This document shows, piece after piece, positions 15,281 to 51,623 of a DNA stretch of 64,000 nucleotides (position 1 is the stretch's first letter; the number at the start of each line of letters is the position of its first letter). The translations under genes and the position numbers were made by a program. The notes below the pieces were generated by a model. The model saw only the letters and a program-made list of their open reading frames with translations. It made no database searches and was not told the origin of the DNA. The stretch comes from Flavobacterium limnophilum (GTDB taxonomy: Bacteria; Bacteroidota; Bacteroidia; Flavobacteriales; Flavobacteriaceae). The stretch lies in the NCBI RefSeq assembly GCF_027111315.2, contig NZ_CP114289.2, forward strand, positions 434,001 to 498,000. The letters run 5' to 3'.

Positions 15281-16612
15281 TTAAAGAATCCCTCTCGCCT
15301 TGATTTCCAAATATTTATTGATGGTGTCCAAAGTCAGGTTTTCGGGTTGGGTGAGTACCGAATAAATCCCGTATTTTTTGAGTTCGTTGACGATTAATCG
15401 TTTTTCGAAAGAAAATTTCTCGGCGATTACTTTGTCGTAAACTTCTTGAATGTTTTCGGCTTTTTTGTTGATGAGTTCATTCAGTTCGGTGTTCTGGAAG
15501 AAAACCACAACCAACAAATGGTTTTTGGCAATCCCTTTTAAATAGGGAAGTTGGCGATGCAAACCGTCCATAGTTTCGAAATTAGTGTACAAAACAATCA
15601 AACTTCTTTGATTGATGTTTTTCTTGATGTCGGTGTACAAACGGCTGAAATCACTTTCGAAAAAATCGGTTTTGATGTTGTACAAGGTTTCCAGAATTTT
15701 GTGCATTTGTGAAGCTCGTCTTTCGGCAAAAACCCGGTTTTCCACTTTTTTGGAAAAGGTCAACATTCCCGCCTTGTCCTGTTTTTTCAAGATGACATTC
15801 GATAAAACCAGCGTGGCATTGATGGCATAATCCAGCAAACTCAGTCCGTTGAAAGGCATTTTCATCACGCGGCCTTTATCGATAATCATATAAACCGATT
15901 GCGATTTTTCGTCCTGAAATTGGTTGACCATTAAGGCATTTTTCTTGGCAGTAGCTTTCCAATTTAAGGTTCTAATGTCGTCGCCTTGATTGTATTCCTT
16001 GATTTGTTCAAACTCCATAGTGTGACCAATTCTTCGGATTTTCTTGATACCATATTGAAACAAATTGTTGGAAAAAGCCATCAAACTGTATTTTCGTAAC
16101 TGAATGTAGGATGGATAAGTCGGCACCATTCTTTGATTGTCGAATTGGAATCGTCTCGAAATTAAAAATAGGGGCGAAGAAACATAAACGTTCAAATTTC
16201 CAAAATAATATTCGCCACGCTCGGTGGGACGCAAATAATATTGGATTTCTTTTTCCGAAGAGGCTTTTATTTTTTGTTTGATATTAAAATTACGAACCTG
16301 AAACTGAAACGGAATTTCGTCAATTATTTTCACCGAAATCGGAAACGTATAATAGTTTTTAATGCCAACTCTTATTTCGTTTTCATCGCCATTAGATAAT
16401 TTTTCGGGCATCATTCTAGTTCCTTCGATGCCGTTTTTGGTGAAAAACAAAATCAGGACATCCAGAACCAAAAAAGTCAAAAGTACCAACAAAACATACC
16501 AAGTGGCGTTATACAAAGCGGGAAATATGAAGGATAAAACAAACAATCCCACCACGCCCAAAAGCGCATAGAAAAAGAAATTGTTGATGTATAAACTTTT
16601 TAGTAGTTTCAT
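15281..16612 (-). CDS. DUF58 domain protein (MoxR-associated, vWA-like)
   Basis: 443 residues. Two hydrophobic helices near the N-terminus (about 12-32 and 36-56) anchor it; a beta-rich middle is followed by the DUF58 core (EFEQIKEYNQGDDIRTLNWKA, about residues 200-220) and a vWA-like domain with VYMIIDKGRVM. DUF58 proteins are usually encoded beside MoxR AAA+ ATPases and are thought to be client or partner proteins in envelope assembly. Here the MoxR gene is upstream on the same strand, but an Abi-like gene now lies between. The gene is intact; its first 27 codons occur again at 17545-17625. Confidence 0.88.
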   Translation of the reverse strand: MKLLKSLYINNFFFYALLGVVGLFVLSFIFPALYNATWYVLLVLLTFLVLDVLILFFTKNGIEGTRMMPEKLSNGDENEIRVGIKNYYTFPISVKIIDEIPFQFQVRNFNIKQKIKASSEKEIQYYLRPTERGEYYFGNLNVYVSSPLFLISRRFQFDNQRMVPTYPSYIQLRKYSLMAFSNNLFQYGIKKIRRIGHTMEFEQIKEYNQGDDIRTLNWKATAKKNALMVNQFQDEKSQSVYMIIDKGRVMKMPFNGLSLLDYAINATLVLSNVILKKQDKAGMLTFSKKVENRVFAERRASQMHKILETLYNIKTDFFESDFSRLYTDIKKNINQRSLIVLYTNFETMDGLHRQLPYLKGIAKNHLLVVVFFQNTELNELINKKAENIQEVYDKVIAEKFSFEKRLIVNELKKYGIYSVLTQPENLTLDTINKYLEIKARGIL

Positions 16613-16614
16613 AA
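16534..16614. repeat. 81-bp direct repeat, copy 1 (5' end of the intact DUF58 gene)
   Basis: These 81 bases are identical to 17545-17625. They cover the first 26 codons of the DUF58 gene, its ATG and two bases before it. Together with copy 2 they bracket the Abi-like gene. Confidence 0.95.
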
Positions 16615-16651
16615 ATAGAGAACTTTTTTTAGTAAATATTGTTGAGGATAA

Positions 16652-17333
16652 TCATAATGCGTCAATTTGATTACAGATTGTCTCTACGTGGTCAAGACCA
16701 TAAAGTAGTGCAGATTCATTAATATTCATCCATTGGAATAATTGTTTGATTATAGCATAATGTTCTCTTGCATAAATTGTGTCTTTTACGGGCTGACCAG
16801 CAATAAAGCATATAGGGTTCGTGATGGGCAATTCGGTTTCTTATGTCGTTGATTCTGGACAATTGATTGAATATATGAACATTATTGTATTGGGTTAGTG
16901 GAGTACTGGTTGGTTTCAAAGGAAATATTTTTAATAAAGTTTTTCCTGTGGCGGTATATTGATTTTGTGCAAACATAAATCTCCAAAATCCAAAGCCAAG
17001 TTCAGCAACCAGCTTACTGTGAGTGTAGTTGTGATTTAATTTGTAGATAGCATCATTTATATTTATACAAGTAAATTTGCATTTGATGTTATCAAAACAA
17101 CCGCCTTGAGCTGCTCCATTTTGAAGCCAATCATTTCCTGTTTTTGCGATGTTGTGCTTGTTTATAGCATTTCGCAAACAAATTTCAAAACAGCAAATTA
17201 CGGTAAAAAGTTCTTGGGATAACCTTAAATTCAAGCGATATAAAGTCATTGCTTTTTTTGTTGAAGCAGTTGCAGTGGTGTAGCGACTCATTCTCGCAAC
17301 AGACATTATTTCTTCGAATTCTGAATATCTCAT
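16652..17333 (-). pseudogene. Abi-family (AbiD/F-like, HEPN-type) abortive infection gene with a frameshift
   Basis: The start is best placed at the ATG 17333 (MRYSEFEEIMS). The frame matches Abi_2-type proteins: LRLSQELFTVICCFEICLRNAI and, near the end, RNRIAHHEP, which holds the R-N-x-x-x-H signature of HEPN RNases. Just after HHEP (around 16811-16817) the open frame goes out of phase and stops at 16719 with an unlikely tail. Dropping one base there restores a plausible 53-residue end (ICFIAGQPVKDTIYAR ... QIDAL) to a TGA at 16652-16654, for a 226-residue protein. So it carries a one-base insertion or a sequencing error. It lies between the two 81-bp repeats, inside the MoxR/DUF58 series. 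Confidence 0.75.
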
Positions 17334-17544
17334 AATTTCGTTTGTTTTTTGATTTATTTGCTTATCTTTGCTGAATCTTATTCCCGATGTTTGTCCCTGA
17401 AGCAATTCAAACCGTCGGGTTTCGTTTTTTTATAAACTTTCCATTTCTACTTTTATTTAGAGAAAAGCTTATTTTTTTCTTGACATAATTTACTTTACCA
17501 AAGTTTATATTTTAAACCCACCTCAGAATCCTCAACGCTTCCCA

Positions 17545-17625
17545 ATAAAACAAACAATCCCACCACGCCCAAAAGCGCATAGAAAAAGAAATTGTTGATG
17601 TATAAACTTTTTAGTAGTTTCATAA
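17545..17625 (-). pseudogene. Orphan copy of the DUF58 gene's 5' end (81-bp direct repeat, copy 2)
   Basis: It is identical over 81 bases to 16534-16614. It encodes MKLLKSLYIN and on to GVVGLFVL from an ATG at 17623-17621, then the frame leaves DUF58 and stops at 17495. It sits where the DUF58 gene would be expected to start downstream of the SIMPL gene, so it is probably one boundary of the inserted Abi cargo. The surrounding stretch 17334-17717 holds no other gene that I can support. Confidence 0.9.
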
Positions 17626-17662
17626 TTTTAGTGTCTGGAAACTTGATAATTAAGGTTTTTAA

Positions 17663-17695
17663 ATCTTTGTCAAAGTTCAAAACTTTGACAAAGAT
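17663..17695. repeat. Perfect 15-bp inverted repeat downstream of the SIMPL gene
   Basis: ATCTTTGTCAAAGTT (17663-17677) and AACTTTGACAAAGAT (17681-17695) are exact reverse complements with a 3-base loop. It lies 22 bases past the SIMPL stop and could end that transcript, although no T run follows on the minus strand. Confidence 0.65.
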
Positions 17696-17717
17696 GTCGT
17701 GTAACCAGTTGTGTATT

Positions 17718-18419
17718 TTATTCAAGTAAATATTTTACACTTACTTGAACTTCAAATTTCACTTTTTGAAATTCAGTGTAAATTGGGTCTGTTGCTCTAC
17801 TGCCATAAATACTAGACATTCCTCTTATTGTTATTCCTGGAGCTTTACCTTGCAAAGAATTAGAAATAGTATTTAAATCAGAAATATATATAGCTTTTCC
17901 AACTTTTTGAGATAATGGATGGGCCAATTTTTCGGCCGTTTGCTTTGTTTTTCTTACCGCTATTGATTTTAATGCTAAAATTAATTCTTCTTCTTTTGAA
18001 TATTCAGTTCTTTCTATGTTTACATTTGAAATTCCAATACTTTCTAGTTCAGCCAATACTTTTCCTGCTGTCACTGCATCTCTGACCAGTAATGAGTACA
18101 TTTTTGACTTAATAATATTTTGTCCTTTCAAAAAATAGTTTTTAAAATTGCTTGAAAAATCAAGCAAGGATAAATCTTTTTCAGTATTTATGTTTAGGCT
18201 TTTAAGAGTAGCTTCAATCATTTTTTCTTGGTCTTCTACTGATTTTTTATTCTTGCTGTCAGCTTCGTTCAGATTTATCGATATAAAAATTTTATCTGGT
18301 ATTACCAATGTATCTGCATTAGCAACTGTCTCAATAAATGGTTGGTCAATATAATTCTTTTGGGCAAATGTTGTAGTTTGAGTGACCAAAATGATAAGTA
18401 ATAGAAGGATTTTTTTCAT
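17718..18419 (-). CDS. SIMPL domain (DUF541) periplasmic protein
   Basis: 233 residues from the ATG at 18419; a longer frame to 18449 has no signal-peptide logic. The N-terminus KKILLLLIILVTQTTTFA is a signal peptide with a likely cut before QKN. The body has the SIMPL/DUF541 pattern: an early VIPDKIFISINLNEAD strand, then SVEDQEKMIEATLKSLN, and a C-terminal VQVSVKYLLE strand. Proteins of this family lie in the periplasm or outer membrane; their job is not well known. It lies between the MoxR gene and the DUF58 region on the same strand, so it may belong to that operon. Confidence 0.78.
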   Translation of the reverse strand: MKKILLLLIILVTQTTTFAQKNYIDQPFIETVANADTLVIPDKIFISINLNEADSKNKKSVEDQEKMIEATLKSLNINTEKDLSLLDFSSNFKNYFLKGQNIIKSKMYSLLVRDAVTAGKVLAELESIGISNVNIERTEYSKEEELILALKSIAVRKTKQTAEKLAHPLSQKVGKAIYISDLNTISNSLQGKAPGITIRGMSSIYGSRATDPIYTEFQKVKFEVQVSVKYLLE

Positions 18420-18493
18420 AGCTGGAGTTGTTAGCTTGTTAATACGCAAAATATTTATTAAACTTTATAATTATTAAATTAAGAAACTAGTAA

Positions 18494-19501
18494 TCACCTC
18501 GGAATCTCCACACTTTCCAAAATCTGCTTGATTATTTCGATACTTGTAATTCCTTCCATTTCGCGTTCTGGCGTTACGATGACACGGTGTTGCAACACAG
18601 GAATAGCAGCTTCCTTGATGTCTTCTGGAGTCACGAAATCACGTCCGCGAATGGCAGCAAAACCTTTGGCGGCATTCAAAATCGCTATTGAAGCACGAGG
18701 CGAAGCACCGAGATACAAAAAGGCATTTTCACGGGTGTTAATCACGATTTTGGCAATGTATTCCAGCAGGTTTTGTTCGACGATAATTTGTTTGACCAGA
18801 GCTTGATAGTATTTGATTTCTTCCGAAGAAAGCAAGGTTTTGATGTTGTCGAGTTTTCCTTGGTTTTGGAGTAAATGTTCTCTTTGGATAATCAGGATTT
18901 CCTCGTCCATTTTTGGATAATCGATAGAAATTTTGAACAGAAAACGGTCTAATTGCGCTTCCGGCAAACGATAGGTTCCTTCTTGTTCGATTGGGTTTTG
19001 TGTTGCAATGACCAAAAATGGCGTGTCCAAAACGTATGTTGTACCATCGATGGTGATTTGGCGTTCTTCCATTACTTCAAAAAGTGCGGCTTGTGTTTTT
19101 GCCGGCGCTCGATTGATTTCGTCAATCAAAATCAAGTTGGAAAAAATAGGGCCTTTTTTGAATTCAAATTCTGATTTTTTCAAGTCGAAAACCGAGGTTC
19201 CCAAAATGTCCGAAGGCATCAAATCGGGCGTAAATTGGATTCGGCTGAAGCCAATGTTCAAGGTTTTGGACAACAATTTAGCAGTAATCGTTTTGGCTAC
19301 ACCGGGAACACCTTCGAGCAAAACGTGACCGTTAGACAAAATAGCGACCAGCAATTGATCGATCATTTTACTTTGTCCCACGATAACGGTTCCGAGTTCC
19401 TGTTTGATGGTGTTGATGCTTTCCAAAAGCGGTTCCAAGTTAATTCGAGATTGAAAATTTACGTTTTCGGTAGGATTTTCAGAGTTGGTTATTTCTTCCA
19501 T
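18494..19501 (-). CDS. MoxR family AAA+ ATPase
   Basis: 335 residues. Walker A is GVPGVAKT (about residues 64-71), Walker B is LILIDEINRAPAK, and sensor 1 lies in FLVIATQNPIEQEGTYRLPEAQLDRF, all diagnostic for MoxR. The C-terminal lid includes GASPRASIAILNAAKGFAAIRGRDFVTPEDI. MoxR proteins act as chaperone-like ATPases on vWA or DUF58 partners; here DUF58, DUF4129 and DUF4350 genes are on the same strand nearby. The 128-base gap upstream holds an inverted repeat, so an internal promoter is possible. Confidence 0.96.
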   Translation of the reverse strand: MEEITNSENPTENVNFQSRINLEPLLESINTIKQELGTVIVGQSKMIDQLLVAILSNGHVLLEGVPGVAKTITAKLLSKTLNIGFSRIQFTPDLMPSDILGTSVFDLKKSEFEFKKGPIFSNLILIDEINRAPAKTQAALFEVMEERQITIDGTTYVLDTPFLVIATQNPIEQEGTYRLPEAQLDRFLFKISIDYPKMDEEILIIQREHLLQNQGKLDNIKTLLSSEEIKYYQALVKQIIVEQNLLEYIAKIVINTRENAFLYLGASPRASIAILNAAKGFAAIRGRDFVTPEDIKEAAIPVLQHRVIVTPEREMEGITSIEIIKQILESVEIPR

Positions 19502-19517
19502 ATATTTTTGTTTTTTT

Positions 19518-19612
19518 AGCCACGAATTACACGAATTGTTTGTCGTTTTAAATTACACAAATTCCTATTTAGGTGGAAATAAAATTTGTGTAAATTCGTG
19601 TAATTCGTGGCT
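19518..19612. repeat. Long inverted repeat with perfect 20-bp arms
   Basis: AGCCACGAATTACACGAATT (19518-19537) is the exact reverse complement of 19593-19612. Inner segments (ATTACACAAATT and AATTTGTGTAA) also partly pair. Repeats with this wording are, to my knowledge, scattered through Flavobacterium genomes. It fills the gap between the DUF4350 and MoxR genes. Confidence 0.8.
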
Positions 19613-19629
19613 GAATTTTTATTTTTTAA

Positions 19630-20829: not shown

Positions 20830-21595
20830 TGTTGATTTTTTTTATTGATTTTTCGAAAGCGTTTTTGGCTTTTGTAAAAGTGGCTTCGTCCAATTCGAAT
20901 TCTCCATACCAAATATTATTGTATAAATACGATAAATACGCAAAATCCTCTTTTTGGGCTTCGTCTTTTATTTCATATAGATAATCGGAGTTGGTTTTTT
21001 CGACATCCCATTCGATGAGTTGTTTTTCGGACATTTTTTTGAGCAACCAAAGGTAATAATAGCGAATAGTCAATCGATTTTCGCCCGATTCTAGGCTTTT
21101 TTGAATGAGTTTTTCGAAATCTACCAAATGAAGGTTTTTCTCGATTTCGTCATAATTGATGATTTTTCTATCGGAATTTTTGCCAAAAATCCATTGTCCC
21201 TCCTTGTTCATTATGGCTTTTACGATCATGTAAATTACGGCGACAACAATAAGAATTGCGATGGTTCGGAGTAAAATATTCACAAAATTTGCAGCTGATT
21301 TGCTATCCGTAAAGCTGAATATATTCTTGAAGAAGTTGGCCAGCCATTCTTTGAACCGATCCCAGGCATTTTTCTCGGGCGTTTTAAATTCGTAGATAAA
21401 TTCCTTGTCGGTGTACTTGGTTTTGAAATTTTTGGCAAACGGTTTTAGTGCGACAAAAGCCGAATCGACAACGATATCTTTTTCTGTAAAAACGATTTTT
21501 TCTTTTTTAGCTACAGCCAACGAGTCTTTGGCTCCAACATTGGAACAAAAGAAAAACAGTATTATAATGAGGATTTTATTCAAGGTCAGTGCCAA
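20822..21595 (-). CDS. DUF4129 domain protein
   Basis: 257 residues. A signal peptide or first helix comes first (LNKILIIILFFFCSNVGA), then a periplasmic part with WDRFKEWLANFFKNIF, a transmembrane helix at about 108-126 (LLRTIAILIVVAVIYMIV) and a cytoplasmic C-terminal domain with LTIRYYYLWLLKKMSEK, typical of DUF4129. The start is a TTG at 21595, or alternatively the TTG at 21583; either overlaps the end of the preceding gene. It overlaps DUF4350 by 8 bases, so these form one operon. Confidence 0.8.
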   Translation of the reverse strand: MALTLNKILIIILFFFCSNVGAKDSLAVAKKEKIVFTEKDIVVDSAFVALKPFAKNFKTKYTDKEFIYEFKTPEKNAWDRFKEWLANFFKNIFSFTDSKSAANFVNILLRTIAILIVVAVIYMIVKAIMNKEGQWIFGKNSDRKIINYDEIEKNLHLVDFEKLIQKSLESGENRLTIRYYYLWLLKKMSEKQLIEWDVEKTNSDYLYEIKDEAQKEDFAYLSYLYNNIWYGEFELDEATFTKAKNAFEKSIKKINNG

Positions 21596-23497: not shown

Positions 23498-23517
23498 CGA
23501 GTGCTAAAATAAGAAAT

Positions 23518-24261: not shown

Positions 24262-24355
24262 TTTTAAGTGGGAAGTGGGAGGTTAGAAGTTAGAAGTAGG
24301 TGGAGGGAAGTATGCAAAATGAATTGCTTAATTTTATAAAGTCAAAATTTAAATA

Positions 24356-26424: not shown

Positions 26425-26443
26425 ATTGGATTTTATTAAAAAC

Positions 26444-31318: not shown

Positions 31319-31322
31319 TTCT

Positions 31323-41355: not shown

Positions 41356-41371
41356 TTTAAGACACAAGGTT

Positions 41372-41475: not shown

Positions 41476-41479
41476 TTCT

Positions 41480-41929
41480 ATGACTTTCAAACAAAAAATA
41501 CACCAACATTATTTACAATTAGTCCAGGACAGAATCGATGTTTTCAGGGATATGATTGTCGCATTAACCGAAGATTCAAAAAACGATGCCAAAGGTTCTG
41601 CTGGCGATAAACACGAAACGGCTTTATCAATGATGCACATCGAACAAGAAAAACTCAATCACAAATTGAAAGAAGTATTGGCTCAAAAAGCAGTTTTAGA
41701 TAAAATTGATTCGACCACAATTGCCAAAACTATTATTGTGGGCAGCTTGGTCAAAGCCAATGGAATTTACCTTTATTTGAGTGCAGCGCTTCCTAAAATT
41801 GCTGTAGAAGGAATCAATGTAATTGCTCTTTCTCCACAATCGCCTTTGGGAAATAAACTGATGGGAAATGAAGTGGGTTTTCAATTTGAGATTAATGGTA
41901 CGAAGTATTTGATTGAAGAAATTAGTTGA
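41480..41929 (+). CDS. Small Gre-like protein (GreA/GreB C-terminal-type)
   Basis: 149 residues. The first half is a helical coiled-coil-like region (MTFKQKIHQHYLQLVQDRI, then SAGDKHETALSMMHIEQEK); the second half has SPQSPLGNKLMGNEVGFQF and the closing TKYLIEEI, which resemble the C-terminal domain of GreA/GreB transcript-cleavage factors (SPIG-ALLG-K-GD). It may bind RNA polymerase's secondary channel; members are often mislabelled as acyl-carrier synthases. The protein's last 26 residues occur again, diverged, at 43170-43250. Confidence 0.68.
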   Translation: MTFKQKIHQHYLQLVQDRIDVFRDMIVALTEDSKNDAKGSAGDKHETALSMMHIEQEKLNHKLKEVLAQKAVLDKIDSTTIAKTIIVGSLVKANGIYLYLSAALPKIAVEGINVIALSPQSPLGNKLMGNEVGFQFEINGTKYLIEEIS

Positions 41930-41934
41930 TAATT

Positions 41935-42582
41935 TCAAAGCAAGAAGAGTTTTTCTGCAAAGTCAATTTTTATCATTTCCCAATTTTTATCAAGCAAACA
42001 ATTAGGATCAAAATCTAAATCGGCGGCATCAAAATTAACGAGCATCTCTTTGATTTTTAGAGCGCCATCGGTATAAGGGTATCGTTTTTCGAAAAAAGAA
42101 ATCATTTCGTCTATCGGAATTTTGTCCAAAAAATAATGTAAATCCCAAAAATCCTTTTTTCGTCCGCCTCGCAAAATCACATCCAATTTCATGGCAATAA
42201 TTTCTTGAATACTAGCCATTCTGATGGTTGAAACTTCTTGAATGGAATCTATATACGGGTCGGTATAGTACAAATCTAATTTTATAAAATCACTCTCTGA
42301 ATTTCCAATTTCAAAATACGTACCGAAAGCAATAATTTCTACGTGACTTGTATTGTAAAAATCATATTTATTTTTTAAGAATGTTTTAATTTTTTCAAAA
42401 TCGATAGAACCATAATCGGCATCGGTAAAAAGATCAATGTCAACCGACATTCGGTGTCCAATTTGCAAACTCAAGGCTGTGCCACCCACCAATCGGAAAG
42501 GCGAAAATAGTTCTTCTTGCATCAAATCGATCAAAATTTCTTTGAGCAAAGGCGAAACGGTATTCCAATGTAAATTTTCCAA
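41935..42582 (-). CDS. AbiEii/AbiGii-family nucleotidyltransferase toxin
   Basis: 215 residues. The N-terminal nucleotidyltransferase motif reads FRLVGGTALSLQIGHRMSVDIDLFTD (GG-TALSL and the D-x-D pair), the mark of the AbiEii toxin family. A late KLDVILRGGRKKDFWDLHYFLDKI also matches that family. AbiEii enzymes block growth by adding nucleotides to RNA and act in phage abortive infection. It starts 5 bases after the HTH gene stop on the same strand, so they form a toxin-antitoxin pair. The pair is bracketed by partial duplicates of a host gene end. Confidence 0.9.
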   Translation of the reverse strand: MENLHWNTVSPLLKEILIDLMQEELFSPFRLVGGTALSLQIGHRMSVDIDLFTDADYGSIDFEKIKTFLKNKYDFYNTSHVEIIAFGTYFEIGNSESDFIKLDLYYTDPYIDSIQEVSTIRMASIQEIIAMKLDVILRGGRKKDFWDLHYFLDKIPIDEMISFFEKRYPYTDGALKIKEMLVNFDAADLDFDPNCLLDKNWEMIKIDFAEKLFLL

Positions 42583-42587
42583 AACGC

Positions 42588-43049
42588 TTACAATTGATGT
42601 TTCATTAATTTAATTTTTTCAACCGTATCAGCACCATAAAAACGGGTGATTTCTTCTTGTTCTTCCTCGGTTCCTCTCGAAAAAACACGTTTTACAACGG
42701 CAACTTTCATTTGTTCCCAATCAATTTTATCGATTGTGGTATCCCAAAATGTGCCTTTTCTTAATTTAGAAATATCGGGTGTTCGTTGGTTTTTTTTCTT
42801 GAAAACTTTGATGTCATAATAATTTTGCAAAGTCATCAAAAAACCTTCTTCTAATTCCAGTTTTTCTTCAATTTTCAAAGAAAGAGGAACATTCATTCTG
42901 CGAGTCCCTTTTATTATGGCGCCTAGAGTCTGCGGATGTTCCCCAATTGCAATGGCAAATTGTCGCTTGTTAATACCTTTTTTAAGCATTTCGCGCTCTA
43001 CAAATTTGCCAGGATGTACGCCTTTTATTATTTTAAGAATGTCTTTCAT
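42588..43049 (-). CDS. Helix-turn-helix antitoxin partner of the AbiEii toxin
   Basis: 153 residues from the ATG at 43049; a longer frame to 43109 starts inside the probable promoter. The N-terminal HigA-like HTH includes HPGKFVEREMLKKGINKRQFAIAIGEHPQTLGAIIKG. The C-terminal half (RKGTFWDTTIDKIDWEQMKVAVVKRVFSRG) is a small domain often joined to such HTHs in AbiEii pairs. It probably represses its own operon from the palindrome just upstream and restrains the toxin. It lies first in the pair, with a 5-base gap before the toxin gene. Confidence 0.82.
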   Translation of the reverse strand: MKDILKIIKGVHPGKFVEREMLKKGINKRQFAIAIGEHPQTLGAIIKGTRRMNVPLSLKIEEKLELEEGFLMTLQNYYDIKVFKKKNQRTPDISKLRKGTFWDTTIDKIDWEQMKVAVVKRVFSRGTEEEQEEITRFYGADTVEKIKLMKHQL

Positions 43050-43053
43050 ATTA

Positions 43054-43075
43054 CAAATGTAAACAAAATTGTTTA
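43054..43075 (-). promoter_or_regulatory. Promoter and probable operator of the AbiEii/HTH pair
   Basis: The palindrome TAAACAAAATTGTTTA (43060-43075; two 7-base arms around AA) overlaps the -7 element TACATTTG (minus strand, 43061-43054). The -7 box ends only 4 bases before the ATG at 43049, so the transcript may be leaderless. This layout suits autorepression by the HTH protein. Confidence 0.6.
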
Positions 43076-43169
43076 TATTAAAAATATATTTTAAAGTACT
43101 GATAAACAAAATAAATACTTGCTTTTTGATAGTAATACTATTATTTCTGTTTCCTCTTGTTCTCTATTA

Positions 43170-43250
43170 GGAAATAAATTGATGGGGAATGAAGTGGGAT
43201 TTACTTTTGAAATAAATAGAACGAAGTATTTGATCGAAGAAATTAGATAA
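43170..43250 (+). pseudogene. Orphan copy of the Gre-like gene's 3' end
   Basis: Twenty-seven codons (GNKLMGNEVGFTFEINRTKY LIEEIR and stop, given in two parts) match 41849-41929 with 13 of 81 bases different, 3 residue changes and 6 silent codon changes. Upstream codons in the same frame (TIISVSSCSLL) still resemble the parent weakly. It lies on the far side of the AbiEii/HTH pair and directly before the small membrane gene, probably the old end of the locus. Confidence 0.82.
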
Positions 43251-43257
43251 TTTGCAA

Positions 43258-43464
43258 ATGAATTATATGCATTTAATCTGTAGTTTTTCTTTTTTTGGAG
43301 CGGCTTTTGCTTTTTATAAAATTCATAAGCTTTGGCGTAAAGATGTTACTGAAAATGATAAGCTTTATAAATTTCAGATAAAAGCTGGAAACTTCAAACA
43401 TTGGATAGGAATTATAATGCTTATAATTGCCGGAATTGTTTATTTATTCAAAGTAATAGGATAA
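43258..43464 (+). CDS. Small two-helix membrane protein
   Basis: 68 residues from the ATG at 43258 (an upstream TTG is less likely). There are hydrophobic segments at about 3-18 (HLICSFSFFGAAFAFY) and 48-65 (WIGIIMLIIAGIVYLF) with a charged loop between. No family recognised. It follows the orphan Gre-like end by 7 bases, so before the cargo arrived it was probably directly downstream of the Gre-like gene. The 228-base gap after it shows no gene; it holds a stretch of dispersed-repeat type and the gatC upstream region. Confidence 0.6.
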   Translation: MNYMHLICSFSFFGAAFAFYKIHKLWRKDVTENDKLYKFQIKAGNFKHWIGIIMLIIAGIVYLFKVIG

Positions 43465-43692
43465 TTTCTTTTAAAAATCCGCGATGCTTGCATCTGTTTC
43501 ATCCGTGTTCCATTCTTCTTAACAGGATTCATTTTATAACAATCTAACATATTATAACAAAATTAAACATAATGTTAAATTAGTGTATTCTTTGGTTGAA
43601 AACCTTCTAAATCATTAAAAAATAGAAATCCCTAATAAAACTTTTCGTAAATTCGCGACCTTAAAAGTTTGACTTTAAAACGAAACGAAATT

Positions 43693-43962
43693 ATGAGCAA
43701 AACAATGACAGTCGACATCTTGTCGAGTATTAAAGGAGCACAGCCCTCAGAGTCCGTGAACCAATTATTTGAGGTGATTAAAAATGCAATTCCAACAAAT
43801 AATAATTCCTTGAATAATGTCAATCATAATTGTGTGTCCGTGAGTGATTTAAGAGAAGATGTTGTGATGGAGAGTTCGGCTATGGAGAAACAGCTCATTA
43901 TAGAAAACTTCCCGAACAAGAAAAATGGTTTTTTAGTGGTTGCAAAAGTGATAGAAGGATAA
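43693..43962 (+). CDS. gatC: GatC-like subunit of the tRNA-dependent amidotransferase
   Basis: 89 residues from the ATG at 43693. The C-terminal half reads LREDVVMESSAMEKQLIIEN, then KNGFLVVAKVIEG, matching the end of GatC (LREDVV ... NAP ... FFVVPKVIE). The N-terminal helix region is diverged, with an Asn-rich insertion (TNNNSLNNVNHN), so it is easily missed by searches. GatC holds GatA and GatB together in the complex that turns misacylated Asp-tRNA(Asn) or Glu-tRNA(Gln) into the amide. It ends one base before gatA, and gatB follows. Confidence 0.78.
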   Translation: MSKTMTVDILSSIKGAQPSESVNQLFEVIKNAIPTNNNSLNNVNHNCVSVSDLREDVVMESSAMEKQLIIENFPNKKNGFLVVAKVIEG

Positions 43963-43963
43963 G

Positions 43964-45361
43964 ATGGAATCTCAAATAAAAAAAATACACCAACAATTGG
44001 TGTCAAAACAAATAACTTGTACAGCTTTGGTGCAAGAAAAATTAGACTTACTTAAGCAAAATACCTATAACTCTGTAAACTCTTTATTGGATACTTTGGC
44101 ACTAGATTTAGCTGCTAAAGTCGATGCGAAAATTGCAAACGGAGAAACAATAGGTTTGCTGGAAGGAATTCCTTTTGGAATTAAAGATGTCTATATGGTG
44201 CAAGGAACTTACACTACGGCAAGTTCTGATTTGTTGAAAAATTATAAATCGCCTTACACGGCTACTGCAATCCAGAAATTATTGGATGCAGGTGCTATTC
44301 CTTTGGTAAAAGAAAACTGTGATAGTTTTGGTCACGGATCTTCCAGTGAAAACACCATTTTTGGTGCTGTAAAAAACGCCATCAATCCAGAATTAGTTGC
44401 CGGAGGTTCAAGTGGTGGATCTGCTGTGAATGTGGCAAAAGATTATACTGTTTTTTCTATTGGTGGAGATACAGGAGGTTCAATTCGTCAGCCTGCCGGG
44501 TACAATCATATTTATGGTTTTAAACCTACTTACGGAAGAATTTCTCGATTTGGTCTAATGGCTTATGCTTCTTCTACAGATTGCGTTGGTCCATTGGCAA
44601 AATCAATTGAAGATATTCGAATTGTGTTGAATGTAATGAGTGGGAAAGATCCAAAAGATCAAACATCAGTCGCTTCAACAGAAATTAGCGAAGAAGCAAT
44701 TGCGACTTCTCCTGTGAAAACAGTAGGGTATTTCAAAAACTTTATCGAAAGCGACGCTATCGATGCCCAAATAAAAGGGGATTTCTTGGCAAGCATCGAA
44801 AAAATAAAAGCCAGAGGAATTGAAGTAAAAGAATTGGACTTTTTCAAATCGGATATTTTGGTTTCGACGTATTATACGCTGGCAATGGCGGAAACGGCTT
44901 CGAATTTATCTCGTTTGGACGGCACCAATTACGGAAACCGAATTGAAGCCGAGAATCTAATTGAAACTTATGCCGTTACCCGTTCTGAAAATTTTTCAGA
45001 AGAAACAAAACGTAGAATTGTTGGTGGAAATCAAGTATTGTCTCAAGGTTTTTCGGATGAAATATATTTAAAAGGATTGGCTTTGAGAGATCAGATTTCT
45101 GAAAACTTCAGTAAAGATTTTGAAGAGGTGGATATTATTTTATCGCCGGTTACACCAAGTACTCCTCCCAAAATTGGAGACAGTTTAAAAGATCCTTTGG
45201 CGATGTATTTGTCCGATGCTTATACGGTTGGATTTAGTTTAGGGCAATTGCCAACTTTAACCGTGCCACAAGGAACGAGTACTGGATTGCAAATTACGGC
45301 AGCAAAAAATAATGATGAATTAGTGTTGAAGTTCGCAAACTTCTTAAAAGATACAATATAA
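43964..45361 (+). CDS. gatA: Asp/Glu-tRNA amidotransferase subunit A (glutaminase/amidase)
   Basis: 465 residues of the amidase-signature family. The catalytic Lys lies in IPFGIKDVYMVQG (near residue 70), the cis-Ser and nucleophilic Ser in GGSSGGSA and GDTGGSIRQPA (about 150-180). GatA releases ammonia from glutamine and passes it to GatB. The stop overlaps the ATG of gatB by one base (ATAATGG), giving tight coupling; gatC ends one base before its start. Confidence 0.94.
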   Translation: MESQIKKIHQQLVSKQITCTALVQEKLDLLKQNTYNSVNSLLDTLALDLAAKVDAKIANGETIGLLEGIPFGIKDVYMVQGTYTTASSDLLKNYKSPYTATAIQKLLDAGAIPLVKENCDSFGHGSSSENTIFGAVKNAINPELVAGGSSGGSAVNVAKDYTVFSIGGDTGGSIRQPAGYNHIYGFKPTYGRISRFGLMAYASSTDCVGPLAKSIEDIRIVLNVMSGKDPKDQTSVASTEISEEAIATSPVKTVGYFKNFIESDAIDAQIKGDFLASIEKIKARGIEVKELDFFKSDILVSTYYTLAMAETASNLSRLDGTNYGNRIEAENLIETYAVTRSENFSEETKRRIVGGNQVLSQGFSDEIYLKGLALRDQISENFSKDFEEVDIILSPVTPSTPPKIGDSLKDPLAMYLSDAYTVGFSLGQLPTLTVPQGTSTGLQITAAKNNDELVLKFANFLKDTI

Positions 45362-48300
45362 TGGAATTGGAGCAATTAACGGCGGCTTTAAAAGCCCACG
45401 ATTTAGAATTGGTAATTGGACTGGAAACTCACGTTCGATTGAATACCAAAACCAAGTTGTTTTGTTCTTGTCCAAATCAAGAAATAGAAACACCTAACGA
45501 AAATATATGTTCGGTTTGTACGGGACAAATGGGCGTTTTGCCTGCCTTGAACAAAGAGGCGATTACAAAAGCGATTTATTTTGGTAAAGCGGTCGATTCG
45601 TCATTCAGTAATGAAATTATCTCTTGGGATAGAAAGCATTACGAATATCCGGACAATCCAAAAAATATTCAAATCACGCAATTTCACAATCCAATAATTC
45701 CTGACGGACACGTTTCTTGTTACCGAAATGACGGTACGCAATTTACCGTAAATTTAACCCAGGTTCATATTGAAGAGGATGCCGCGAAATTGATGCACGA
45801 AAAGAAGATTTCGTTAGTCGATTTCAACAAAGCGGGTGTACCATTGATTGAAATTGTTACGGAACCTTGTATTCGTAATATTGAAGATGCTTCAACTTAT
45901 GCACAATACATCCAGCGTATAGTTCAAAACTTAGGGATTTCTGAAGCGAATTTGGAGAAAGGAGAGTTTAAATCGGATGTTTCGGTTTCTTTGCGCAAAA
46001 AACATTCTTACGAATTGAACCCAAGAACGGAAATTAAAAACTTGAACTCGTTTAAGTTTATGATCGAAGCTTTGAAAGAAGAAGTGGAGAAACAATTCAA
46101 TTATTTTATTGAGCACAAAGAGTTTAGACCTGATCAAACGACTGTATTATGGGATGCTGATTTAAAGCAAACCAAAGTGATGCGTAAAAAAGAATTTGAA
46201 GCGGATTACCGTTTTATTTCGGAACCCGATTTACCTTTTGTAAATATCAAAGCGGAGATTGAAGCGATTAAAGTGGATACAAGCGCATTGCCTTATGCTG
46301 TTGAATCTATTTTGATTAACGGAGGTGTTTTGCCGCAAGATGCTAAGTTCTTTACCGCAGATAAGTTGCGTTCGCAAACATTTGTGGAAATTAATAACGA
46401 AATCAAAGATCCTTCGTTTGTTGCCAAAACTTTGGCGAACAATATTAAGGCTGAAGATTACGCTGAAATTCATAGTATAGCTCATTTAACGGATATTTTC
46501 AAATTATTCAAAGCCGAAAAAATTACGGCAGTTTTGGTTCAAAATGCCATTACATCTTATTTGAAAGATCGCACTTTTGACTACAACAAGTACTTTGATG
46601 ACAATACTATTTCTGAAGATACAATTCAGGAAGTTATTGCTAAAGTGCTTTTAGAAAATGAGGCTGTTGCCAATGATATTAAAGCGGGAGACCAAGGAAA
46701 AGCGGGTATTTTAGTTGGTAAAGTTTTAGGCGTTATCGGAAAAGGAGCGAATGGAAAAGTAATTCGTCAAATTATTTTAGGCAAATTAGGAGCTGCCGCA
46801 ATTTTAGAAAAGAAGGAAGCGGCTGAAAAAGTTACGACAGAAACAATTGTTGAGAATAAAGAAAGTCAAGAAGAAACACTTCCTGAAATTCCAATTATTA
46901 TAAAGGACACGTACAGAACACATAAAATTTCGCAATTATCCGAAGGAAACATCGGTGAAGAAGTGATGTTGTCGGGTTGGGTTGCCAGTGTTCGTGACCA
47001 CGGTGAATTAATGTTTATTGATTTGCGTGATTCCAGTTATGAGATTTTTCAAGTTAGAATCAGCAGAGAATCATTTCCTAATATTGATGAGTTGGTGAAA
47101 TTGAAACCAGAATCTGTAATTTCGGTAACTGGAATTGTTGTCGGTCGTAACGAAGATGATTACAATGCAGGATTACGTACTGGTAAAATCGAATTAGAAA
47201 CTTCGGCTTTAGAAATTTTAAACTTGTCTAAAACATTGCCTTTTGAAATTAAAAGAGCTGCAAAAACAAATGAAGCTATTCGTTTTCAATACAAGTTTTT
47301 GGATCATAGAAATGAAGAAGTAAGAAGAGCGATTGTAAACCGTCATAAAGTAATTAAATTATTGCGTGACATTTTGGATGAAGAGGAATTTTTAGAAATT
47401 GAAACGCCAATTTTAAGTGCAGGAACCGATGAAGGAGCACGTGAATTTATTGTTCCAACTCGTAAAGGTTCTGGTTTGTTTTATACCTTGCCACAAGCGC
47501 CTCAGCAGTTCAAACAGATGTTGATGGTGAGTGGTTATGAGAAGTATTTCCAAATTGCGCGTTGTTTCAGGGATGAGGATTCTCGTGGAGACCGTCAACC
47601 GGAATTCACGCAATTGGATTTAGAAATGGCTTACGCCAGTATGCAGCAAATTATTGATTTGAACACTAAAATGTTTAATGAAGTAGTGAAGAAAATCTAT
47701 GGCAACAAATGGATTTTACGTCCGTTTGAAGTGATTACCTATAAAGAAGCATTGGATTTCTATGGTTGCGACAGACCGGATTTACGTTACGGATTGAAAA
47801 TGCAAGACATTACCGATATCGTAAAAGATACGACTTTCCAAGTATTTAGTAAGCCTATTGAAGAAGGTGGAATTGTAAAATGCATCAAAGTTTCGGCTAA
47901 AGAGCAAGGAAATAAGCGTATGTCTAAAGGCCAAATCGAAAATCTTACCGCTATTGCGCAACAGCACGGTTTAGGTGGATTGGCTTATATTATTGTAAAT
48001 GAAGACGAACTGCAATCACCAATTATTAAGTTTTTAGGAGAAGATATTGCGACAGGAATCATAAAAGCGACTGATGCACAAGTAGGAGATATTGTTTTCT
48101 TCTCGGCAGCAGATTATGCAACGGCAAACAAAGCTTTGGATGCTGTTCGTCAAGAATTAGGTAAAATATTGCATTTAATCAATCCGAAGGAATTATGTCC
48201 AGCTTGGGTAGTTGATTTTCCAATGTTTGAAAGAACGGATGAAGGAAGATGGACATTTACGCACAATCCTTTTTCGATGCCTGCAATTTATGATTTGCAA

Positions 48301-48690
48301 AAACATATGAATGGAACTGATGAAGAAATCGGAACTATCATCGCGCAACAATACGACATTATCTTAAACGGTTACGAAATAGGTGGAGGTTCAGTTCGTG
48401 CACATAAATCAGAGATTCTAGAAGCAACTTATAGAAATATGGGATACAACAAAGAAGAAATGATAAAAAGCGTAGGAACGATGTACAAAGCTTTTCAATA
48501 CGGCGCGCCACCACACGGAGGAATCGCTTGGGGAATCGACCGTTTGATGATGATTTTGGAGAAAAAAGCATCCATTAGAGAAGTTATGGCTTTCCCGAAA
48601 ACAGGTTCTAGCGAAGATTTATTGTTTGGCGCACCGTCTATTTTATCGGATAAAAAGGTAGAAGAAATGAATGTGAGGATTATGAGATAA
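45361..48690 (+). CDS. gatB-aspS: GatB-AspRS fusion: amidotransferase subunit B joined to aspartyl-tRNA synthetase
   Basis: 1109 residues. Roughly the first 480 form GatB: VIGLETHVRLNTKTKLFCSC with the zinc cysteines, CSVCTGQMGVLPALN, NKAGVPLIEIVTEP, and a YqeY-like end with DQGKAGILVGKVLG. A charged linker (about 485-510) leads to a complete bacterial AspRS: OB domain with GWVASVRDHGELMFIDLRD, class II motif 2 in FRDEDSRGDRQPEFTQLD, GAD insert, and motif 3 in GGIAWGIDRLMMILEK. The His in RDHG agrees with non-discriminating AspRS of the Pseudomonas type. The fusion should pair Asp-tRNA(Asn) formation with its amidation. The last 47 codons recur at 51483-51623. Confidence 0.93.
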   Translation: MELEQLTAALKAHDLELVIGLETHVRLNTKTKLFCSCPNQEIETPNENICSVCTGQMGVLPALNKEAITKAIYFGKAVDSSFSNEIISWDRKHYEYPDNPKNIQITQFHNPIIPDGHVSCYRNDGTQFTVNLTQVHIEEDAAKLMHEKKISLVDFNKAGVPLIEIVTEPCIRNIEDASTYAQYIQRIVQNLGISEANLEKGEFKSDVSVSLRKKHSYELNPRTEIKNLNSFKFMIEALKEEVEKQFNYFIEHKEFRPDQTTVLWDADLKQTKVMRKKEFEADYRFISEPDLPFVNIKAEIEAIKVDTSALPYAVESILINGGVLPQDAKFFTADKLRSQTFVEINNEIKDPSFVAKTLANNIKAEDYAEIHSIAHLTDIFKLFKAEKITAVLVQNAITSYLKDRTFDYNKYFDDNTISEDTIQEVIAKVLLENEAVANDIKAGDQGKAGILVGKVLGVIGKGANGKVIRQIILGKLGAAAILEKKEAAEKVTTETIVENKESQEETLPEIPIIIKDTYRTHKISQLSEGNIGEEVMLSGWVASVRDHGELMFIDLRDSSYEIFQVRISRESFPNIDELVKLKPESVISVTGIVVGRNEDDYNAGLRTGKIELETSALEILNLSKTLPFEIKRAAKTNEAIRFQYKFLDHRNEEVRRAIVNRHKVIKLLRDILDEEEFLEIETPILSAGTDEGAREFIVPTRKGSGLFYTLPQAPQQFKQMLMVSGYEKYFQIARCFRDEDSRGDRQPEFTQLDLEMAYASMQQIIDLNTKMFNEVVKKIYGNKWILRPFEVITYKEALDFYGCDRPDLRYGLKMQDITDIVKDTTFQVFSKPIEEGGIVKCIKVSAKEQGNKRMSKGQIENLTAIAQQHGLGGLAYIIVNEDELQSPIIKFLGEDIATGIIKATDAQVGDIVFFSAADYATANKALDAVRQELGKILHLINPKELCPAWVVDFPMFERTDEGRWTFTHNPFSMPAIYDLQKHMNGTDEEIGTIIAQQYDIILNGYEIGGGSVRAHKSEILEATYRNMGYNKEEMIKSVGTMYKAFQYGAPPHGGIAWGIDRLMMILEKKASIREVMAFPKTGSSEDLLFGAPSILSDKKVEEMNVRIMR

Positions 48691-48718
48691 TAGATTTTTA
48701 AAATCTAAAATAAATAGT

Positions 48719-48759
48719 AAAAGCGGATTTGTACTGAAAAGTATGAATTCGCTTTTTTT
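48719..48759 (+). terminator. Intrinsic terminator after gatB-aspS
   Basis: AAAAGCGGATT (48719-48729) pairs with AATTCGCTTTT (48746-48756) with one G-T pair, then more T. It lies 29 bases past the stop and before the NACHT gene, so the cargo has its own transcription unit. Confidence 0.65.
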
Positions 48760-48820
48760 ATGGAATTCTCAATGTGATAAAATATAGAAAATGTACTACA
48801 TTTGTTGAAAAATATAATAT

Positions 48821-51457
48821 ATGGAAATTAAACTAAAATTCTCAAAATTAAAACTCACGATTAACTTAAAAGAAGTTGTTAAAAATATTTTTGACTTTAA
48901 TATTGGAACTGTTTTAACAGAAACTTTAAGAATTGAAAATACAAACGAACAAAAGGCCTTTTTGTTACTCTTAAAGACGATACAAAAAACCAATGTTGAA
49001 TTAGCAAAGAAATATGGACAACAAGAACTAAACAAAGAAGCCGATTTGGTTTTGAAAGCAAGTTTGCTTGAATCAAATATTGTTTCCTTTTTAGAAAGGG
49101 AAGTGGTAATTAAAAGAGAATTTTTTGAAGATATTATCCAGTTTAATCCAAATTATTTACGCGAGTCATATTTGTTTTTTAAAGAGTATTTAGATCTCTT
49201 GAATATTAAATATCCTAATGATTTAAATTTTATTTATTTTAATGATTTTAGAATAAATCTTGAAGATGAATTTCAAGAGAATAGAGAAATATATAAATCA
49301 TTAATAGAATACTTTGATAATCCTATATTCAATGAAAATAAAAAAATGTTGAAACAATTGGATTATTATAAGAAATTAATCAAAAGTTTTGTAGAACCTC
49401 TTCAGTCAGACATTCCTGAATGTAAAGAAACTTTAAAAGATCTATACGTTGAACCTTTTTTTGAAATTCATAAAAATAGCTTTACTTCAAAAACTGCAGA
49501 AAGTATAAGTGAATTTAATGGACTAGAAAAGGAGATATCTACTCATTTATTTCTAAAAGATTATTACTTTAAAAATAAAAAGCATCCAAATTTTACAAAT
49601 AGTTATAATTTACTTTTTGTTCTTGGGCAGCCAGGTCAAGGTAAGACTTCATTTTGTAGTAAATTAGTGTATGATTATATAGTTGAATCAGATGGGATTC
49701 CAAAAATTCCTTTGTTTTTTGTGAAAATTAGAGATTTAGTTGCAAGAGATTTTATTGATACTCCTTTTAATGAAATCCAAAGACAAATTAATCAAAATTT
49801 CGACTTTCAAAATAATGAATGCATATTGGTTTTAGATGGTCTTGATGAGGCCTATATGAGTGGTGGTCTAAATGATGGTGATTTACGGAATTTATATGAA
49901 CGTTTAAAAAGCACTACACAATCAAATGAAGATTTAAAAATAATTTTGACTTCGAGATTTAATTATTTGAAGCTTAATGATTCTTGTATTGATCGTTCTT
50001 CTGTAATTCAGTTAAGTACTTTGAATAGTTCACAAATAAAAGAATACTCTGAAAAATTTAAGCAATTTTATCCAGAGAATAAATTGGTAGAGAAAATTGA
50101 TAAAATTTTAACTGATAAAAAGTATGAACATATTTTAGAGCTTTTGCAACAAGCTGTTTTGTTGTATTTTATAGCCATATCTGATATTGATATTGAAGAA
50201 CAAGATTCCAGAACTGTTGTTTATGATAAAATTTTTAATTCGTTAGCAATGCGAAGTTGGGATAAAAATGGTCAGCTAAGTTACATTAAACAAACATTAA
50301 AGGATAATCCATTTCGTTATGAAAAACTATTAAGAGATTATATTCGAAATATAGCATTTGCAATTTATCAATCACCAAAATTATATATTACAATTAATCA
50401 GTTACTTGAATTAGATGCAACAACTGAATTTATAAATAAATGTTTTGATGATAGTATAAATTATTCTCAAGAAAAAATAAAAGAGATTAGTAAATATTTA
50501 TTAATCAGTTTTTACTTCCAAGAATCCAAATCCAATGATTCGTCGGACACGGCTATTGAATTTTTTCATAACTCATTATGGGAATATTTGACAGCAGAAT
50601 ATATGTGGGAAGAAAATAAAAAGTTGTTGCTCGATAAAGATAGTTATGGAGATTACAAAACTGTTAATAGAGAGAAATACTTTAATTTATTGGATCGATT
50701 AATAGGTCAAAAAAAATTAGGCGATGCCACTTTAGAAAACTTAACAAATATAATTATTAATGCTTCAGAATCAGAAAAAAAAGAGATTGCTCTTTTGTCA
50801 AAACCTCTCTTTGATAAACTTCTACAAGATGATTTTTTATTAGAATATAGTATCAGAGATAATCGTTTAAGTTCTATAGAGAAATCTATTGCTATTTTTG
50901 AATTATTCTGGGTTTTTTATTATCGATCAAGTCTTGCTACTACCAATATTATTATTGGGGATGATAATTTAATTAAATACTTATTTGATTATTCGTATTC
51001 ATTTAGAATTAATGGTAGTCTAAAGAATATGAAATTTGTCGGTGATATGATTTCAACATCATTTGCTGCTAGTTTTGATTATGAGAATATTGAATTTAAT
51101 TCTGAGATAGATAATAGTTGGTTTGCTCGATGTAATTTTAAAGATTTGAAATTTACAGCGGGATTTGGATTATGTGTTTTTTCAGGTTGTAATTTTGATG
51201 GTGTAGTTATAGAAGAATGTAGTATGTATAAATATTCTAATTTTGCAGAGAATAAATTTGAAAATTGCAGATTTGAAAATGTATATGTTGAAAATATTAA
51301 TTGGCTAAAAGATTTGAATAAAAAGAATACTTTGACTCAAGCAATGTTGACAAATCATAAAGTCGAAAAAACTTTTGAGGTTAATCGTATTAGTGGTAAA
51401 AGAGAAGTTAAATATATCGTTAGGTATATTGGAGAAGATGTTAAAATAAATGAATGA
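48821..51457 (+). CDS. NACHT-type STAND NTPase with pentapeptide-like C-terminus
   Basis: 878 residues. A helical N-terminal domain (about 1-230) has no recognised enzyme motif. The NACHT core has Walker A in LGQPGQGKTSFCS (about 268-280) and the typical LVLDGLDEA (336-344) with the extra acidic residues of NACHT Walker B, then ILTSRFNY. A helical region follows, then about residues 740-845 contain degenerate pentapeptide-like repeats (NCRFENVYVENINW, CNFKDLKFTAG, CNFDGVVIEEC). Bacterial NACHT proteins of this form protect against phages. The gene is very AT-rich compared with its neighbours and lies between gatB-aspS and an orphan copy of its end. Confidence 0.85.
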   Translation: MEIKLKFSKLKLTINLKEVVKNIFDFNIGTVLTETLRIENTNEQKAFLLLLKTIQKTNVELAKKYGQQELNKEADLVLKASLLESNIVSFLEREVVIKREFFEDIIQFNPNYLRESYLFFKEYLDLLNIKYPNDLNFIYFNDFRINLEDEFQENREIYKSLIEYFDNPIFNENKKMLKQLDYYKKLIKSFVEPLQSDIPECKETLKDLYVEPFFEIHKNSFTSKTAESISEFNGLEKEISTHLFLKDYYFKNKKHPNFTNSYNLLFVLGQPGQGKTSFCSKLVYDYIVESDGIPKIPLFFVKIRDLVARDFIDTPFNEIQRQINQNFDFQNNECILVLDGLDEAYMSGGLNDGDLRNLYERLKSTTQSNEDLKIILTSRFNYLKLNDSCIDRSSVIQLSTLNSSQIKEYSEKFKQFYPENKLVEKIDKILTDKKYEHILELLQQAVLLYFIAISDIDIEEQDSRTVVYDKIFNSLAMRSWDKNGQLSYIKQTLKDNPFRYEKLLRDYIRNIAFAIYQSPKLYITINQLLELDATTEFINKCFDDSINYSQEKIKEISKYLLISFYFQESKSNDSSDTAIEFFHNSLWEYLTAEYMWEENKKLLLDKDSYGDYKTVNREKYFNLLDRLIGQKKLGDATLENLTNIIINASESEKKEIALLSKPLFDKLLQDDFLLEYSIRDNRLSSIEKSIAIFELFWVFYYRSSLATTNIIIGDDNLIKYLFDYSYSFRINGSLKNMKFVGDMISTSFAASFDYENIEFNSEIDNSWFARCNFKDLKFTAGFGLCVFSGCNFDGVVIEECSMYKYSNFAENKFENCRFENVYVENINWLKDLNKKNTLTQAMLTNHKVEKTFEVNRISGKREVKYIVRYIGEDVKINE

Positions 51458-51482
51458 AAATTTAAAATTTATTCAGGTTAGC

Positions 51483-51623
51483 ATAATTTTAGAGAAAAAA
51501 GCATCCATTAGAGAGGTTATGGTTTTTCCAAAAACGGGTTCTAGCGAAGATTTATTGTTCGGAGCACCATCTCTTTTATCGGATAAAAAGGTGGAAGAAA
51601 TGAATGTTCGAATTATGAGATAA
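51483..51623 (+). pseudogene. Orphan copy of the gatB-aspS 3' end
   Basis: Forty-seven codons from IILEKKASIREVMVFPKTGS to MR-stop match 48550-48690. Fifteen of 141 bases differ, but only 3 residues change (M to I, A to V, I to L); 11 codons differ silently. It has no start and no body, and is followed directly by a good terminator. The 351-base stretch 51458-51808 holds this copy, the terminator and the gyrB promoter region, and no other gene. Confidence 0.93.

Follow-up and report, generated by a model that had tools for sequence, protein, structure and literature searches.

The subject of this analysis is a 64,000-nucleotide stretch of the Flavobacterium limnophilum genome (NZ_CP114289.2, 434,001-498,000; the window, in whose positions coordinates are given unless a genome is named), where three defence-type cargoes each lie between the intact end of a host gene and an orphan copy of that same end. 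These orphans are quite probably the scars of tail-anchored insertion, a reading drawn from sequence comparison with relatives, which are coded G### (the own genome being G000). An incoming fragment from another species would carry the end of the neighbouring gene, its terminator, and one or two cargo genes, and would recombine within the gene end that it shares with the resident gene. That gene would acquire the newcomer's last codons and terminator and remain intact, and its own last codons and terminator would be displaced beyond the cargo, becoming the orphan.

Three repeat pairs flanking defence-type cargo had been described in an earlier note on this DNA, and a repeat search of the window found all three where that note had placed them. 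The copies were identical at 81/81 positions for the 5' end of a DUF58 gene, at 70/84 for the 3' end of a gene of 149 residues (the 149-aa gene), and at 126/141 for the 3' end of aspS, and each pair was beyond chance in a self-search of 413 kb (E = 7e-34, 4e-18, and 6e-48, respectively). The 149-aa gene stood as a repeat host, but its copies differed at 14/84 positions, not 13/81 as previously counted, and the label 'Gre-like' that it had been given was without a Pfam match and is unverified. Domains were called with Pfam and defence genes with PADLOC models. By Pfam, the enclosed genes specified an Abi_2 protein, an AbiEii protein paired with an HTH/DUF6922 protein, and a NACHT/STAND-type NTPase; PADLOC matched the Abi_2 and AbiEii proteins, and weakly the HTH protein (E=0.001), while the NACHT protein had no PADLOC match, and since no PADLOC model covers it the 'defence' label there rests on domain type. 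At the loci tested, a homologous stretch was found on both sides of the insert.

The aspS locus

The gatB-aspS fusion gene (45361..48690, + strand) occurs in 45/398 genomes of the genus, as judged by a match of at least 91% to its last 80 residues. Its intact 3' end (48550..48690, +) is followed by a class A terminator (48691..48770, +; the classes are described below), the NACHT/STAND-type cargo gene (48821..51457, +; 878 residues, PF05729 and PF20720, with a C-terminal region that is pentapeptide-like under the Pfam cut-off), the orphan 3' end (51483..51623, +; 15/141 differences), and a class C terminator with the flank upstream of gyrB (51624..51730, +). Where relatives have an empty site, aspS is followed on its right by gyrB (here 51809..53752, +). 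From aspS towards gyrB, 40/44 fusion-bearing relatives were read, gyrB being out of reach in 3, and empty sites of 178-185 bp were found in G307 (183 bp), G167, and G160; the comparison with relatives lacking the cargo, which the earlier note had proposed, was made at this locus. Among the relatives read, G307 was the nearest by gyrB (91.8% DNA identity), and it ranked fifth by gatA. Its sequence after aspS resembled the flank of the own orphan (95% over 105 bp) and not the flank of the own intact gene. Judged by this alignment, the orphan is in native surroundings and it is the intact gene that borders the cargo.

The terminators gave the same polarity. They were classed from the 110 bases 3' of the aspS end in 40 relatives, in the own genome's intact copy, and at four orphans, which yielded 18 rows of class A, 17 of class B, 5 of class C, and five singles. 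The own intact aspS carried class A (best matches G283, G382, and G040), which this classing indicates to be foreign, and the own orphan carried class C (95% to G307); both sequences fold as hairpins followed by T runs. Neither of the two flanks had a match under E = 1e-3 elsewhere in the 2.01 Mb searched from the own genome and relatives (own 813 kb, with G307, G340, and G373 at 400 kb each). Among the relatives, G283 had a class A intact gene and an orphan of the weaker class B, and the G373 orphan was of class A. Class B resembles repeats elsewhere, and class B assignments, including that of the G283 orphan flank, are therefore weaker than those of A and C.

The codon positions of the differences between copies also bear on ancestry. 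When eight orphan pairs were pooled (two in the window, six in relatives), 59/82 differences fell at third positions (p = 1e-12). Taken singly, the share was 12/15 at the own aspS (p=0.0003) and 8/12 at the own 149-aa gene (p=0.02), and 13/13, 7/10, and 5/6 in G235, G340, and G059; own 263177, which lies outside the window and makes a ninth pair, gave 18/32 (p = 0.006). Such a bias implies that the two copies diverged in separate lineages, each while still the end of a functioning gene, since decay after duplication would have spread changes over the codon positions, and plain duplication followed by decay was rejected on this ground for the 149-aa gene and aspS.

The earlier note had claimed that each cargo arrives with a relative's host-gene end, and that the host gene is thereby restored. 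At aspS the codon test, the terminators, and the empty site of G307 bear this out: as far as sequences can, they show that the cargo came with a relative's aspS tail and terminator, so that the incoming DNA had one end homologous to the recipient, as seen in the gene ends and the terminators, two of each and of different ancestry. For the 149-aa gene the claim is supported less fully (8/12 third positions and the flank in G373), and the identical DUF58 pair is uninformative.

As a separate observation on the host gene, the other full-length rows to the gatB-aspS fusion, among the matches listed, were 42-51% identical.

The 149-aa gene and DUF58 loci

The 149-aa gene (41480..41929, +) is an open reading frame (ORF) with no Pfam match, and its end was matched in 47/50 genomes. 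Between its intact 3' end (41846..41929, +; found by self-search) and the orphan (43167..43250, +) lie, on the opposite strand, a homologue of the AbiEii nucleotidyltransferase toxin (41935..42582, -; PF08843 E=1e-19, PADLOC AbiEii) and its HTH and DUF6922 partner (42588..43109, -), a gene that adjoins the AbiEii homologue in 14/14 loci fetched from other genomes. The flank downstream of the orphan (43251..43700, +) is the same sequence that lies 3' of the intact gene in G373, and partly in G340 and G235; positions 43166-43700 aligned to G373 at 83.6% over 535 bp. The orphan is thus probably in native surroundings here as well, and the two gene ends of different ancestry together with the relatives' flank show in part, by comparison, a tail-anchored insertion.

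Downstream of the 149-aa gene, the interval was covered in 44 relatives, the right end being out of reach in 8, and orphans were found in G340 and G252 (five cross-panel matches of 24-31 bp were omitted as weak). What separates gene and orphan in G340 is the flank seen after the own orphan and after the intact gene of G373, which means that the flank of one arrival is the older ground of another. The G340 orphan was preceded by only ~270 bp and a 68-aa ORF, which comes close to an orphan without cargo, a finding that the earlier note had held would tell against its reading.

At the DUF58 locus the host gene (15281..16612, -; PF01882) has MoxR as the next match in relatives. The intact 5' end (16534..16614, -) and the orphan (17545..17625, -) are the 81-bp copies that are identical throughout, and they enclose an Abi_2 gene (16719..17405, -; an ORF of 228 aa, or 204 aa from the first ATG; PF07751 E=6e-7; PADLOC PD-T4-5 and AbiD). 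Positions 17547-17700 aligned at 92% to the DUF58 start and upstream region of G340, and 17547-17647 at 93% to the G307 counterpart at the DUF58 start; by these alignments, the orphan is in native surroundings at DUF58. Beyond it lie a SIMPL gene (17718..18449, -; PF04402), which is a further insertion, without an orphan, between MoxR and DUF58, and the MoxR ATPase gene (18494..19501, -), identified by Pfam and by the relatives' loci, in which MoxR stands next beside DUF58 at a spacing of tens of bases to ~1.5 kb. Neither the Abi_2 nor the SIMPL protein had a match in the relatives' DUF58 loci read, and by this comparison both genes are extra at the locus, the orphan accompanying the Abi_2 gene alone.

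The DUF58 pair is what a long target duplication would leave, in which a cargo enters a break with widely spaced staggered ends, leaving a copy of the target to its left and right: the copies around the Abi_2 gene agree at 81/81 positions and the orphan is in native context. At the other two loci the copies differ by 11-17%, mostly at third positions, and the aspS terminators are of different classes, which means that the copies were not one sequence in the lineage shortly before insertion. Derivation of both copies from the target is compatible with DUF58, but was not found at aspS nor, going by codon positions, at the 149-aa gene, and as an account of all three loci long target duplication is unlikely. 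The DUF58 insertion may reflect either the process proposed for the other loci, the donor then being of the same species, or simple long target duplication, the two being equally possible.

Mechanism of insertion

The 15 differing sites of the aspS pair hold a further signal. G307 matched the intact gene at 8/9 sites from -139 to -61 and the orphan at 6/6 sites from -55 to -13, a switch between native and foreign at -61/-55 with a permutation p = 0.0035. Sequence of foreign origin probably makes up the intact copy between about -55 and the stop and, in the orphan, the part as far as about -61; from about -55 the orphan is probably native. The first seven other references tried gave no signal (p 0.75-1.0); with all 40 references, 7 had an uncorrected p<0.05, all in the same order (G307, G010, G332, G252, G045, G165, and G182). 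Going by these references, the odd bases of the upstream part are in the orphan and those of the downstream part in the intact gene, which is the pattern of a crossover with an outlying donor, and the sister is not singled out. Sliding-window identity over aspS was uninformative, the species all being ~90% alike.

Such a swap would be expected if a circular molecule with the gene end on it had recombined by a single crossover, and for this best fit to the aspS switch we infer that the incoming molecule would have been circular or circularised and have entered by one crossover. Uptake would presumably have been by transformation; families of comEC and dprA are present in the own genome. The earlier note had instead proposed homology on one side and illegitimate joining on the other. 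Its homology side stands at aspS; its joining side is less sure, as the signal there seems to swap part-way along the repeat. In strict homology-facilitated illegitimate recombination (HFIR), a linear fragment would pair through the gene end on one side and join by random microhomology upstream of the pairing site, so doubling the gene end. This would account for the variable orphan boundaries, and at G340, the sole junction with both parents represented, a microhomology of 3-4 bases (AAT or CATT) was placed by eye. The G340 orphan is also native throughout, as strict HFIR expects (11/13 informative sites match G307), though this fits either route. However, one-sided linear joining predicts identical copies upstream of the crossover, and there the doubled aspS stretch has differences that are mostly at third positions, G307 siding with the intact copy. 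Published products of HFIR are generally an insertion with a deletion (PMC3240628), and here there is a duplication: no deletion of resident DNA was seen at the join, the gene end being kept and doubled. Strict HFIR is thus a possible but somewhat doubtful explanation, and a circular intermediate is somewhat likelier than one-sided linear joining.

Several observations weigh against tail-anchored insertion by a circular molecule. At DUF58 the copies are identical and show no foreign end, so that neither copy is marked as foreign. Taken alone, the pairs of G252 (7/16), G373 (5/8), and G283 (2/2) had no significant third-position bias. G307 differs in flank at the 149-aa gene and has there an insert of 2.5 kb that lacks an orphan, which makes the native status of the orphan side at this gene less sure. 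No donor was found: the nearest NACHT homologues were 49% and 46% identical in one search and 48% and 41% in another, and in the loci read around the nearest AbiEii homologues (75% and 73%) the 149-aa gene was not their neighbour. The switch at aspS is one locus with 15 sites, and six of the seven references that reveal it are not close relatives and are partly of class A. In G235, the switch had p=0.056 against G340 and 0.54 against the nearest relative by gyrB (G241), with 1/39 references under 0.05, which is the chance level, and the own 149-aa pair and the G340 pair were without a switch. Finally, the comEC and dprA families were also present in 10/14 and 11/14 control genomes, and competence is not proven.

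The aspS-gyrB interval across the genus

Among the 40 relatives, the aspS-gyrB interval ranged from 178 bp to >6.7 kb, and orphans of the aspS end were found in four (G059, G373, G235, and G283) besides the own window. A 13-bp match in G241 was omitted as weak. The orphans began at -141, -159, -50, -27, and -254 at aspS, where that of G373 perhaps begins further up (a second small match), and at -84, -92, and -75 at the 149-aa gene. Orphans at the same two sites with differing boundaries and cargoes make a fixed att site unlikely. The anatomy is that of islands which restore a gene end, and an integrative element using an att site there, with its integrase lost or acting from elsewhere, could draw on the 11 tyrosine recombinase (PF00589) matches elsewhere in the own genome. 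Yet the starts vary by up to 227 bases at aspS and up to 17 at the 149-aa gene without a shared core, though decay could shift apparent starts, and no PF00589 match was present in the window, the nearest being 26 kb to its left (other recombinase families and transposases were not searched as such). The earlier observation that no integrase lies near the cargoes was upheld to this extent, and the att-site island, rejected for want of a PF00589 match in the window and of a common core, is a very remote prospect.

A second aspS-type terminator occurred later in 11/41 intervals, in 10/24 of those of at least 600 bp and 1/17 of the shorter ones, a count made by hand, without length correction, with a cut-off set post hoc, and one in which longer intervals favour chance. 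Only 5/11 of these later terminators include class A or C, and 6/11 are class B alone. In G066 (L051), doubled class B terminators enclose a HigB/HigA-type pair (PADLOC PD-Lambda-2).

Three side observations concern these intervals and the recombinases. In G274 (L059), ~276 bp past aspS, terminators of class A and class C follow one another in that order, with no ORF of at least 90 aa between; this doubled terminator is possibly the scar left after cargo loss. Proteins similar to the G066 pair were seen by eye in G005 (L062; both) and G356 (L069; the antitoxin-like one). In the own genome, seven tyrosine recombinase matches fall inside 21 kb (G000:C1:997351-1018478), six of which have almost the same score and length.

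Frequency of orphans and nature of the cargo

Between the own genome and G307, 93 collinear gene pairs were compared, of which 26 differed by at least 400 bp, and orphans were present at 4/26 (three reported by the script, plus the own 149-aa junction, of which the script covered the larger side only). Orphans were found at 2/18 variable junctions between the own genome and G340 and at 3/28 between G307 and G340, the sites being partly shared; one G307-G340 orphan, a 27-bp match in G307, was left outside the tally. A habitual genome-wide route, as the earlier note had suggested, was rejected, orphans marking a minority of variable junctions.

The self-search of the 2.01 Mb gave 15 candidates, of which 7 were accepted, a tally that counting some of the dropped rows would alter. 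Besides the three given cases, the accepted ones were G307 363544 (33 bp, 100%, with a 248-aa cargo), one each in G340 and G373, and own 263177-265204, a peptidase-like gene (by eye) with a 72% orphan of its 3' end (113 bp, at 262270-262382), ~800 bp off, and a DUF1842 gene between. The dropped candidates included own 168850 and 292486, which are in repeat clusters; own 250122, with 32 bp, two large genes between, and no annotation; and G307 226515, where neighbouring genes have similar starts. From a second own stretch, 1191068 (37 bp, 89%) and 1196988 (27 bp, E=6e-3) were also dropped, and their cargo proteins had no PADLOC match. Own 1218946, with 75 bp near a similar-sized gene, was taken as a tandem copy, and own 1376506 is a repeat without a gene between.

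All three given cargoes are of defence type, G283 carries a LmuA/B/C-type cargo, and the toxin-antitoxin pair of G066 is of a kindred sort, as would be expected of a route specific to defence genes. Counting the given cases, 4/11 orphan-flanked cargoes were defence-like against 1/19 comparator proteins (one-sided p=0.047), the comparators being 20 hand-picked from 78 ORFs, less one that lay beyond the G307 orphan. The given three drew the attention, however, and outside them the figures were 1/8 against 1/19 (p=0.51); both comparisons are rough, setting events against single hand-picked proteins. The remaining accepted cargoes were a glycosyl hydrolase 65 in G059, proteins of no family in G373, G235, and G307, a DUF6090 protein under the cut-off in G252, the DUF1842 protein of own 263177, and the 68-aa ORF of G340 (not scanned). 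The earlier proposal of a habitual, defence-specific route was not supported: of the eight new cargoes one was defence-like, and in this small sample the relatives' orphans flank mostly ordinary or unknown genes, as the earlier note had said would speak against it. Cargo of the toxin-antitoxin or defence kind is frequent, but other genes have used the route too, and a dedicated exchange route for defence genes is improbable.

Significance and comparison with known systems

Much of the gene turnover between conserved genes leaves no mechanistic trace. A displaced gene end with its terminator gives polarity (the native side), ancestry (the terminator class), and perhaps the position of the crossover. 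If such scars are general, genome sequence alone could give the frequency with which single genes, defence genes included, move without mobile elements, and distinguish circular from linear intermediates. Extended to the genus, the picture would be one in which the ends and terminators of housekeeping genes serve as portable docking handles, small circles of a relative's DNA entering by one crossover and leaving the host gene unbroken, with no mobile element; arrivals would stack, and the displaced terminators would form layers giving their order and source. We offer this generalisation tentatively, as a rather unlikely one.

In the Rhs system the displaced end is itself the functional cargo, whereas here the gene end would be a mere docking handle. 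Rhs C-terminal displacement, as named in PMC5361080, is alike in that a 3' region is replaced and the old ones are kept as orphans. For effector-immunity modules of the type VI secretion system (T6SS) in Vibrio cholerae, an HFIR-like displacement has been proposed (PMC5361080, 2017), and the likeness extends to an upstream homology anchor, a displaced resident end, an orphan downstream, and serial stacking. The T6SS orphans, however, are immunity genes within one weapon locus, whereas those described here are ordinary gene ends, with a terminator at aspS, and their cargo has no relation to the host gene.

Restriction-modification genes have been described as insertions with long target duplication (Nobusato et al. 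2000, cited in PMC3031569), with long, variable direct repeats of host sequence around the insert, and the DUF58 case fits these; at the 149-aa gene and aspS, by contrast, the copies would come from different lineages. In an E. coli assay for one-sided joining, 56/60 clones gave a polymerase chain reaction product of a partial duplication, and the 14 sequenced were of 109-950 bp (PMC3240628); the authors regarded such duplications as single crossovers of recircularised, partly degraded DNA. Those products share the order of gene, cargo, and truncated gene-end copy, but they arose from a selected, conjugated plasmid in E. coli, whereas the present ones are inferred from natural genomes. The integrase-less hotspots of Oliveira and colleagues (2017, PMC5635113) likewise place variable cargo between conserved genes without need of a mobile element; for these, double recombination at both flanks was proposed, which would presumably leave no orphan. 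No prior description of a scar of gene end plus terminator at housekeeping genes was found in the paper searches made, which covered open-licence papers. Displacement that leaves orphans is thus known, and it is the gene-end and terminator scar at housekeeping genes that is apparently new.

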